A stretch of DNA of 64,000 nucleotides from Onthophagus taurus (Eukaryota; Arthropoda; Insecta; Coleoptera; Scarabaeidae), in contig NC_091970.1 in the NCBI RefSeq assembly GCF_036711975.1, positions 3,913,501 through 3,977,500 of the forward strand, in the 5' to 3' direction. Positions 4,439 to 55,541 of this stretch are shown here, one piece after another. Numbering within the stretch: position 1 is the first letter of the stretch; every line of letters begins with the position of its first letter. The translations under genes and the position numbers were made by a program. A model generated the notes under the pieces. It saw nothing but the letters and a program-made list of their open reading frames with translations, ran no database searches and was not told where the DNA came from.

Positions 4439-4902
4439 TTAATGATATTTGTAGTTCCTATGCTTCTTAATCTTGCCGTAATTTAAGAAATAAAATACAG
4501 CCATTGAAACACTGATCAACTGGAAGAAACCAGCGATTCCGGCGCGTTTCGGTTGGATATATTTATGTTGCCATCTCCACCAAGCCCGACTGCAAGCCCC
4601 GGCTACGGCTTGTGGACTTTTAGTTCTCCTCCCAAACCATGAACCTAATTCGCCAAGTTTTACTTGACCAAATGGGGTATCCGCTAAAAATATTAAGTTA
4701 AATAAATTTAATTGAAGATTATGAAACAAGAAACAGTGATGTGGTTATGTAATACAAAAAAAGTGAGGTTATAATTTTCTAGGTGGGTTAATTTTAATTA
4801 AAGAATTAGTGATGGATACTCACGCTTCCCGTAAAAACGTGCAGGATCATAAGGACCGTGCACTTTCGGATTATATTCAGCGGGATAATCTCCAAAACCC
4901 AT
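4439..4902 (-). CDS. ATPsynF: Mitochondrial ATP synthase subunit f
   Basis: Subunit f of the membrane (Fo) part of mitochondrial ATP synthase, in the inner membrane. There are two exons, 4824-4902 (start ATG at 4900-4902) and 4439-4683 (stop TAA included), joined by a GT..AG intron at 4684-4823. The 107-residue product starts MGFGDYPAEYNPKVHGPYDP, continues with FGQVKLGELGSWFGRR and the AWWRWQHKYIQPKRAGIAGF block, has one membrane helix (about residues 77-97) and ends in KHRNYKYH. This is nearly the whole length of the insect family. The first exon is short and easily missed. A TTTATT on the plus strand at 4331-4336 (AATAAA in the transcript) lies about 100 bp past the stop. The gene is in the same orientation as TMEM94 but has its own start region. 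Confidence 0.96.
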
Positions 4903-5541
4903 TTTTTGGACTTCACTTCAGCAGGTCAATATGGCCACGAGTGAAGTTAGTTGAAATTGAAACTGACAGGGATATAAAAATAATTTTATTAATTATAATT
5001 ATTAATTATTTATTTTATTGCGATATTATTAAGATTTGTTAATGATGATGTAAAATGAAATGAATTTTTAAGATTGTTTTAGTAAAAAAATTATTTCTTA
5101 ATAAATGTCATTTTAAGAACGCATCCCACGTCAGCTGTCACTACAAATGTCAAAAAAAAAACGATAGTTTTTCCATAAAATAGTTAATTTCTAACTGAAT
5201 CACCTCACACATCTCCGCAAAATCAAGAGAAAACCCGTTTTAAGCTTGCAATTAAGCAATAAAAGACGATCCATGCGGCTCGGATTAAGTTCAAAGAACC
5301 CGAAACGTCGACGACGATTTTAAAGAACCACTTGGTAGGAGATTAATTTTTTTTATTGTTTACTAGGGAGAGAAAAGGGGTTTCGATGCGTTTTCTCGCG
5401 GACGGTTGAATTGGTGGTTTTGTCTCTCTCAAACGGGGGACGCTTGTGTGTTTGTGGGAGACACAGACGGGGCAATGCACGTAGGCTGTCCTTGCGGGGT
5501 TGAAACGAACGGTTCGCGACGGCTTTCGAGGAGGCCCTCCA

Positions 5542-53010: not shown

Positions 53011-55541
53011 CTAAGAAGTGGTTGCTGCAGCAGTGGCTTTTTCGTCCTCCTTGATACGATCCTTCTTTAAAGTACCCATAAAATCGCTCTTGTCCTTTGG
53101 CGTCTGGAAGCGACCGTGCCCAAATTTGGATGAAGTATCGATAAACTTGAGGTTAATCTTTTCGAGGGCAACGCGTTTCGTATGAACCAAAAGAGACTTC
53201 CTCAACGTGATCACCCGCTTTTTAGGCCCCATACAACAACCCTTAATCATAATGAAATCGTTGTTGACCTCACCATAATGAGGGAAACCACCCATCGGAG
53301 TAATCGTTTTTTCAGTTAAATCGTATTGGGTTGAAGCGTTATTTTTAATAACCTAAAAGTTAAAAAAAAATTTAATTAATAAATGTCATCAAATGACGTT
53401 TGAGGTTAAGATTTTTTTGAGGTTAATTCAGACCTATCATTCATAATCACGGATTTTTTTCATAATCCTTTTGGCTTCGTAAGTTTCATCATTTATTTAT
53501 TAATTAATAAGGGTAATTAAAGATTTATTTTTCTTACTTTTCCGTCTTTTGTATGTATCCCTGCTCCGATTCTATAAATTTTCTTATTCATTTCGGTACG
53601 GTGATGATAACCCTTTTGACCGGCGCGAGCAACTGTGAAAGATACTCTCGATGGATGCCAAGCCCCAATACAAGCAACCTTTCGGAGACCTTTATGCGTT
53701 TTCCTGGGAAGTTTCTTTGTGTGCCAACGGGATGTGACACCTAAAAAAAATTAAAAATGATTTAAATAACATAATAAATTAGATTGTTAAGTTTTGAAGT
53801 TAGAATTAATTTCAGTAGGAAGGCAGCAACATGATCGTATCCTCAATGATTTTATTCAGGTTTCAATACACATCATGCGTTCTCATCACATTGATTAATT
53901 CAGCAATTAATGGGCAACATTTTTTGAGGTTACCTTTATATCCTTTTCCTTTTGTAACTCCGATACAATCTATCATCTCATCTTGAGCAAAAACGTTGGT
54001 TATGGGGATGGGTTTTTCTAAATGCTCGCGAGCCCATTTAACTTTATCTTCGATGGTGCCTCCATTGAGTTGAATTTCCATGATGTGGGCTTTCTTTTGG
54101 CGTTGTTTCAACAATTTCATCTAAATAAACCAAAAAATTTTGTTAAAAGGAATTAAATTTTGATTTGAGATTGTAACGAGCATGGTTTTTCCAAGTGTCA
54201 TTGCCTAAGTGGCTACACAGTGACTCAGGAATATGCCCGATGCACCTCCCAAGGGGTACATTCTCTTTGACACTGCGATGAAAGCCCCATTAATAAAAGA
54301 CTTTCTTCATCGCCAGTTAGGGGGTAAGCCCGATCACTGATCGTGTCAATTATTGATAATCAAAAATAAAACCAACCTGAGTGTGAGCGATAACTCGAAC
54401 AACTTTGCAATATTTAACAATTTTCTTAAAATCTTTTTCGATACTCTTCTTCCCAAGCTCATCTTGCCACTTTTTCGAGGCCTTCGTAAACGCCTTCTTC
54501 TTACTCTTGTACCTTAACGCATAAAAAAGATCGAAACATCTTTAAAAACGTGATAAAACGAGCTCCTTTAAAAATAAAATTCATAAAGGGCAGTCTCATA
54601 ATTTAGCGGAGACTTAAAATCCCTTCCCATCACCACCGACTACTTCATTTTTGAGTCGAGTGGTGATTAAAAATTCTCTCATCTTTTTAAAAGAGAGGAG
54701 AGTCAAAATGATTAAGTTAATATCTCACCAATTCTTATAGAAACGTCTTCTACAATCTTCAGAAAGATGCTCAGCCCAAACAGTAGCTAATGCTCTTAAA
54801 CCATGGGGTGTTTCAATGTACCCAACACAACCAACGATAACCATTGGAGGTGTTTCTAAGATTGTTACGGCTTCAACAATTTCTTTCTTATTAATTTCTA
54901 AAAAGGAAAATTTAAATTAATGAATGACATAATCTCAAAAGAAAAATTCTTTTTTCCTTTTTTAATCAGACCTATCATTAATAATCATTTTTTTCATAAT
55001 CCTTTTGGCTATTAGCTTTATCATCATCATAATTAAGCAATTTTGATACAAATTTGTAAAACTTACTTGATCCAGGGCGATCGGCTTCGCGCAAAACATG
55101 GGTCATACCAGCTTTATACCCAATAAAAGCGGTGAGATGTACCGGCTTGGTTGGATCATCCTTCGGGAAGGCCTTAACTTTACCACGATGTCTGCGGGAC
55201 CTCTTTTTGGGGTAGAACCCCATCGATCCATGACGGGGGGCGCTAAACTTCCTATGGGACTAAAACACCATAGTTAATATCGCAACTAAACCGATAAAGT
55301 CATCAAATTTAAACGATTATTAATCAGACCGCCCTAGAATTGAATCTACATAAAATATTTCAGTAGACGTTCTAACCTTAAATTCTAGAAATCATCATGT
55401 AATCGAAATAACATTTTAAAGGGATTAAATTATGTTTAAATTGATGGATTTGAACCGAATTAAATCAACTTGATAAAGGATTATGTTGAAATTTGCGGAT
55501 TAATACCAAACAAATAAAATTAAAAGAAACAAACTTACCAT
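53011..55541 (-). CDS. RpL3: Ribosomal protein L3 (uL3)
   Basis: Large-subunit ribosomal protein close to the peptidyl-transferase centre. Seven exons: 55539-55541 (the ATG alone), 55067-55259, 54729-54897, 54377-54512, 53934-54120, 53538-53740 and 53011-53352, 410 residues in all. The protein starts [20 protein letters not shown], followed by [69 protein letters not shown] and [15 protein letters not shown]. The basic C-terminal region ends ATAAATTS. A three-base first coding exon after the start is known in RP genes. The introns carry snoRNA-like sequences. On the minus strand TATAAAA (plus 55588-55594) and a CACGTG (55575-55580) lie just before the start. Confidence 0.97.
53423..53505 (-). 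ncRNA. Box C/D snoRNA in RpL3 intron (paralogue a)
   Basis: Minus strand: C box ATGATGA (plus 53486-53492) and D box CTGA (plus 53428-53431), with short terminal pairing TTAAT/ATTAA. Between them are GCCAAAAGGATTATGA and AATGATAGGT directly before the D box. The same two segments occur in the intron at 54962-55036. Target not recognised. Confidence 0.6.
53802..53901 (-). ncRNA. Box C/D snoRNA in RpL3 intron, 18S guide candidate
   Basis: Minus strand: C box GTGATGA (plus 53883-53889), D' box CTGA (plus 53856-53859), D box CTGA (plus 53811-53814) and an 8-bp terminal stem GAATTAAT/ATTAATTC. The bases just before D, TGCTGCCTTCCTA, are complementary to AGGAAGGCAGCA, a universally conserved piece of 18S rRNA (recalled). 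Human RPL3 introns also host C/D snoRNAs. Confidence 0.75.
54193..54350 (-). ncRNA. H/ACA-like snoRNA in RpL3 intron (candidate)
   Basis: Minus strand: a 5' hairpin closed by TTGACAC/GTGTCAA with an inner GCGATGAA/TTTCATCGC stem, then AGAGAA (fits the H box ANANNA). Next come hairpins TGTACC/GGTGCA and CCTGAGT/ACTTAGG, and ACA followed by three bases CTT (plus 54193-54198). The order fits an H/ACA RNA of about 158 nt, but the extra middle hairpin is unusual. Confidence 0.45.
54513..54728 (-). other. Structured RpL3 intron
   Basis: Minus strand hairpins: CTCTC/GAGAG, ATCACCACTCGACT/AGTCGGTGGTGAT and AGTCTC/GAGACT inside AAGGG/CCCTT. No H, ACA, C or D box set could be found, so the class of RNA, if any, is open. 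Confidence 0.3.
54962..55036 (-). ncRNA. Box C/D snoRNA in RpL3 intron (paralogue b)
   Basis: Minus strand: ATGATGATGA near the 5' end (plus 55021-55030), GCCAAAAGGATTATGA, AATGATAGGT and D box CTGA (plus 54966-54969), with TTAAT/ATTAA terminal pairing. It matches the snoRNA at 53423-53505 in both internal segments. Confidence 0.6.
55314..55405 (-). ncRNA. Box C/D snoRNA in RpL3 intron 1, double 18S guide
   Basis: Minus strand: terminal stem CGATTA/TAATCG, C box ATGATGA (plus 55392-55398), D' box CTGA (plus 55360-55363) and D box CTGA (plus 55324-55327), about 92 nt. Before D is CTAGGGCGGT and before D' is GGTTAGAAC. They are complementary to neighbouring parts of insect 18S rRNA (recalled as ACCGCCCTAGTTCTAACC). 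Confidence 0.75.

Follow-up and report, generated by a model that had tools for sequence, protein, structure and literature searches.

The first intron of RpL3 in Onthophagus taurus holds, on the minus strand, a box C/D snoRNA of the Rfam snoU43 family, two segments of which are complementary to adjoining stretches of the species' own 18S rRNA. We favor, with a probability of about 0.8, the reading in which the D guide of this snoRNA (CUAGGGCGGU) directs 2'-O-methylation of 18S C1077 and a second element, GGUUAGAAC, serves as an accessory guide that raises this methylation. Judged from the pairing register, C1077 is the most likely target of the D guide. The whole 64-kb stretch of DNA that was analyzed is called "the window" throughout, and the features located in it are collected in Table 1.

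Boxes C, D' and D and the terminal stem had been described as intact in an earlier, sequence-only reading, and all were located on the minus strand. Boxes C and D lie near the ends of the snoRNA, as is characteristic of the class, and the stem CGAUUA/UAAUCG is present in the predicted fold. The consensus of boxes C and C' is RUGAUGA. Ten Watson-Crick pairs are formed directly before box D (about nine or more bases beside D or D' are looked for in a guide of this class). The assignment to RpL3 intron 1, also made in that reading, held up: splice sites were read at both ends of the intron, and the Ribosomal_L3 family (PF00297) was matched by all three of the exon peptides that were compared with Pfam (E values of 6e-28 for exon 2, 8.2e-25 and 8.5e-23). 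The end of the snoRNA is 54 bases from the last base of the intron, which is the usual position for an intronic C/D snoRNA. Human SNORD43 (U43) is likewise a box C/D snoRNA with RPL3 as its host gene, according to an excerpt of PMC6466398.

Table 1. Features located in the window.
Feature	Position	Strand	Details
RpL3 start ATG	55541	-	
Host intron (RpL3 intron 1)	55260..55538	-	splice sites read: GT at 55538, AG ending 55260
Box C/D snoRNA, Rfam snoU43 family, including terminal stem	55314..55405	-	RF01174 match at 55320-55398
Terminal stem	5' arm CGAUUA 55400..55405, pairing with UAAUCG 55314-55319	-	6 bp
Box C, AUGAUGA	55392..55398	-	read from sequence
Putative accessory guide, GGUUAGAAC	55369..55377	-	9 Watson-Crick pairs with 18S 1082-1090
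Box D', CUGA	55360..55363	-	five bases 3' of GGUUAGAAC
C'-like box, AUGUAGA	55345..55351	-	5/7 vs RUGAUGA (two mismatches); absent from the sequence-only reading
D guide, CUAGGGCGGU	55328..55337	-	10 Watson-Crick pairs with 18S 1073-1082; C1077 faces the fifth base 5' of box D
Box D, CUGA	55324..55327	-	read from sequence
C/D candidate, RpL3 intron 2	54962-55034	-	RF04327 (snoMe28S-A3420), 27.4 bits, cut-off 60, E 1.9
SNORA73 (U17/snR30-like) H/ACA candidate, RpL3 intron	54169-54349	-	RF00045, 49.7 bits, E 1.1e-10, cut-off 74
U83-like C/D candidate, RpL3 intron	53805-53899	-	RF00593, 27.9 bits, cut-off 35, E 0.0023
Sphinx_2 match	4449-4606	-	Rfam, 88.1 bits
Sphinx_1 match	4808-4907	-	Rfam, 47.4 bits

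The window was scanned with cmscan, and three matches at Rfam gathering scores were returned. One of them was a full-length match to the RF01174 (snoU43) covariance model at 46.9 bits, barely over the cut-off of 45; the same locus scored 31.4 bits, below the cut-off, when RF01174 was searched genome-wide. The latter search covered the 290.8-Mb genome; 74 candidates out of 43,517 were scored, and 18 matches had E values of 10 or lower. Among the 74 candidates scored, the RpL3 intron 1 locus was the best match (E 5.4e-5) and no second good snoU43 copy was found, the runner-up having an E value of 0.64. The RF01174 consensus features, like the RpL3 snoRNA, a C box, a GGUUAGAAC block, UGA at the D' position, a CUAGGGCGG guide and a D box. 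The interior after D' diverges, and the spacer before D' carries one inserted base in the RpL3 snoRNA, at a place where the alignment is of low confidence. Because GGUUAGAAC falls within the consensus, it is not peculiar to O. taurus, and since both rRNA-complementary blocks do, contact at two places is apparently a trait of the snoU43 family. The conservation of the intron 1 snoRNA is read solely from this consensus. The name snoU43 was not met in the literature searched, and a snoRNA-shaped pattern had no matches in viral contigs.

The genome's own full-length 18S gene (L009, 4058-5984; 1927 bases; 1750 bits to RF01960) was used as the reference for all 18S pairings. The 18-base target motif was found at three places in the O. 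taurus genome, each within an SSU rRNA match (the best being the reference gene itself); insect 18S primers given in excerpts of PMC10051671, PMC9290502 and PMC4674751 contain it as well. In a wider search for relatives, the 18S motif had no matches in viral contigs and three in genome contigs. One of the latter three is in a contig labeled as a cyanobacterial MAG (Coleofasciculus; L002, 1-2500, minus strand), yet the 18S there is eukaryotic; this contig is probably a contaminant, given its matches to eukaryotic 18S, 5.8S and 28S.

Both segments are Watson-Crick-paired to the reference over their full lengths (10/10 for CUAGGGCGGU and 9/9 for GGUUAGAAC), and no other G-U-free run of at least 9 was found between the snoRNA and 18S. 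The duplexes (-19.7 kcal/mol at the CUAGGGCGGU site, -14.1 kcal/mol at the GGUUAGAAC site) are colinear, and the 18S contacts abut, with G1082 the sole common base. The claim that the two guides are complementary to side-by-side stretches of 18S was thus borne out with the species' own gene. Counting against an accessory role, two other 18S stretches equal the 9 Watson-Crick pairs of GGUUAGAAC, though with G-U pairs: snoRNA bases 16-25 with 18S 155-164 (one G-U) and snoRNA bases 31-42 with 18S 1569-1580 (three G-U). The first of these, which closely follows box C and is adjacent to neither D nor D', was presumed to be a chance match. Pieces of 28S (915 and 706 bases) and 155 bases of 5.8S were also scanned, and the best run there was 8 Watson-Crick pairs; it was dismissed as a second target, as it is located at the 3' end of the snoRNA, outside both guides.

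Shuffled sequences were used to estimate how often such contacts arise by chance. At least 10 pairs located 0-2 nt from the D box, anywhere in 18S, were obtained in 93 of 20,000 dinucleotide shuffles and 766 of 200,000 base shuffles. At least 9 pairs between the C-to-D' region and 18S, no more than 30 nt from the D-guide site, were obtained in 263 of 20,000 shuffles in the dinucleotide test and 771 of 200,000 in the base test. Nine-pair matches to 18S as a whole arise readily (495 of 5,000 shuffles), and the weight is therefore carried by the adjacency of the contacts; when 336 other 70-nt windows along 18S were compared with the C-to-D' region, 13 contained an 8-base match. The joint chance of both contacts, calculated as a product assuming independence, would be ca. 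1.5e-5 to 6e-5. The earlier judgment that two adjoining guides are unlikely by chance consequently stands for their closeness, which was rare in the shuffles.

Two explanations of the double contact had been offered in the sequence-only reading, i.e. two neighboring 2'-O-methyl sites or a chaperone-like interaction. Under the former, the D guide would act at C1077 and GGUUAGAAC, as a D' guide, at a neighboring base of the same 18S segment. Both contacts are indeed real and adjacent, and excerpts of PMC5389607 describe four yeast snoRNAs for which modification of two bases within a single target region is predicted, by way of unusual C'/D' motifs and, in snR13, of extra pairing as well. However, GUCUA, the spacer that occupies positions -1 to -5 and links GGUUAGAAC to D', forms no standard pair with the facing 18S bases 1081-1077, which are already within the D-guide duplex; the five-base rule thus names no nucleotide for D'. 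Two adjacent methyl sites were rejected on account of this empty catalytic register, and we hold them to be highly improbable. The latter explanation is supported by the predicted anatomy of the snoRNA: the second duplex (9 pairs, 1082-1090) is beside the guide site and outside the five-base register, with five unpaired bases before D', as is expected of an accessory or chaperone-like element.

Box D' could instead serve a second guide elsewhere in 18S. The segment UUAGAACGUCUA, directly before D', can pair with 18S 1569-1580 and would thereby direct methylation of U1573; sharing snoRNA bases with the accessory contact, such a guide would compete with it. The twelve contiguous pairs (9 Watson-Crick and 3 G-U) end exactly at D', and the duplex energy of -13.6 kcal/mol is near that of the accessory contact. 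On the other hand, a run this good was equaled in 23 of 1000 shuffles against 18S alone, the target base itself is in a G-U pair, and the spacer GUCUA on which this pairing depends is missing from the RF01174 consensus. U1573 presumably corresponds approximately to human U1509, and we know of no methylation at that human site, which also counts against this guide. We consider both the U1573 guide and its competition with the accessory contact unlikely.

The D guide might also, or even mainly, serve another site. ACCGCCC occurs twice in the O. taurus 18S, at 1073 and 1760, and a homolog of U43/SNORD43 would use the second occurrence to methylate C1764, which we take to be the counterpart of human C1703. 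The human SNORD43 guide core, presumably GGGCGG, is likewise present in the RpL3 snoRNA. Excerpts of PMC6466398 give C1703 as the 18S target of human SNORD43, hosted by RPL3; this site is elsewhere in 18S than 1073-1090. Furthermore, a separate C1764 guide was not recognized in the genome: two patterns that place GACGGGCGG near the boxes, covering one guide register, were found at 2 and 1 places, none of them C/D-like by eye (a backwards control of the first pattern also gave 2). However, only 7 pairs (-15.0 kcal/mol) are formed with ACCGCCCGUC at the second occurrence, compared with 10 (-19.7 kcal/mol) at 1073, and the accessory element fits 1082-1090 (-14.1 kcal/mol) far better than the surroundings of 1760 (-5.0 kcal/mol). 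The snoRNA is not matched by the SNORD43 family (RF00221), for which the genome search returned nothing over the cut-off and, away from this locus, two weak matches (E 2.04 and 9.31), neither of them recognized as a separate C1764 guide. For chicken U43, a table excerpted from PMC2653536 lists a 5' guide; in the RpL3 snoRNA it is the 3' one. Action at C1764 is thus quite unlikely in our estimation, and the name snoU43 should not be taken to denote a C1703 guide. Very unlikely, too, is a combination of two exclusive modes, in which snoRNA bases 29-42 would either clamp 1082-1090 or methylate U1573 by way of D', with the core of the D guide also reaching C1764; if true, one RpL3-hosted guide would link up to three 18S sites.

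The favored reading, i.e. C1077 methylation assisted by an accessory contact, can be laid out as follows. The snoRNA would be expressed by release from RpL3 intron 1. With the D guide annealed to 18S 1073-1082, fibrillarin would 2'-O-methylate C1077 in keeping with the five-base rule. GGUUAGAAC would bind the next eight or nine bases (1082/1083-1090), such that the 18-base rRNA stretch would be held almost unbroken; because the duplexes are colinear and abutting, snoRNA bases 38-68, including D' and C', would be looped out. A local hairpin, GUUAGAG/UUCUAAC, is predicted in this part of 18S, with the accessory target as its 3' strand; we take this hairpin to be helix 24. By occupying this strand, GGUUAGAAC could keep the target open and so increase methylation at C1077. 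The predicted cost of opening the D-guide site, calculated in three fold windows, fell from 5.5 to 2.4, from 3.3 to 2.2, and from 3.4 to 1.1 kcal/mol when the second site was taken. The hairpin is the best predicted fold in a 71-nt window, but not in 141- or 251-nt windows, and its stability is no better than that of shuffled sequences (z of -0.63; 55 of 200 shuffles were as good).

Excerpts from the literature on snoRNA pairing provide precedents for this arrangement. Accessory contacts beside the guide site are ordinary (PMC5389607), and accessory pairing adjacent to the target, including overlap with the guide, is documented (PMC5389607, PMC6124571, PMC8522698). The accessory-guide snoRNAs of yeast and vertebrates (van Nues et al. 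2011, cited in PMC5389607 and PMC6124571) have the same geometry, with a second element beside the guide site and the intervening snoRNA looped out; snoRNA loops between two interaction sites are described in PMC6124571, and overlap of the two contacts is reported for these snoRNAs as well (PMC5389607). Extra pairing was without effect in U18 constructs (PMC5389607). The RpL3 snoRNA differs from the yeast and vertebrate cases in that both of its contacts are on insect 18S 1073-1090 and the stimulation is predicted from modeling.

A fly 2'-O-methylation atlas is reportedly available (Sklias 2024). In a newer fly map, 17 of the 18 established 18S sites were detected; Am28 and Cm1367 are the only ones of these named in the excerpted text, which is neutral on C1077 (PMC13228274). 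Fly Cm1367 was placed at C1342 of the O. taurus 18S, and, by its distance from Cm1367 and assuming no indels, the fly counterpart of C1077 would be near C1102. In the literature searched, no paper was found that joins snoRNA, 18S and Drosophila with C1831, C1096 or snoU43.

Three further snoRNA candidates are present in RpL3 introns, all below the Rfam cut-offs (Table 1). For the SNORA73-like candidate, stable folding (z of -3.4) is predicted when its limits are extended a little, and AUAUUCCU and AAACCAU are presumably the m1 and m2 elements of U17; AAAACCAUG forms 7 pairs with 18S 902-908, but 364-370 is paired equally well (7), and for AUAUUCCU no place gives more than 6 Watson-Crick pairs, so that the rRNA contacts of this candidate are at most putative. 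The guide of the 28S-A3420-like candidate, UAAUGAUAGG, pairs with CCUAUCAUUG of the species' own 28S (9 Watson-Crick pairs and 1 G-U); 9 Watson-Crick pairs are likewise attained at two further places in the region scanned, neither of them beside D. Short 28S-like pieces repeated ca. 880 bases apart were observed in G000 (C19, C26, C32 and C33), including 63-base and 41-base matches to the 28S fragment in L019. The fly sphinx RNA is derived from an ATP synthase F chain gene, and the two Sphinx matches in the window may therefore be exons of this parent gene rather than a long non-coding RNA. The U83-like candidate has a guide one base before D that is complementary to 18S 438-450 (12 Watson-Crick pairs, 1 G-U) and would point at A441; U83A and U83B are also hosted by human RPL3 (PMC3412847, in excerpt).

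The RpL3 intron 1 snoRNA is a further snoRNA of a known family with an ordinary arrangement. As the mechanism of accessory pairing is already established, the gain is modest and consists of an annotated snoRNA in the O. taurus genome, together with a clear example on 18S in which accessory pairing can be tested, 18 contiguous rRNA bases being matched by two snoRNA segments.
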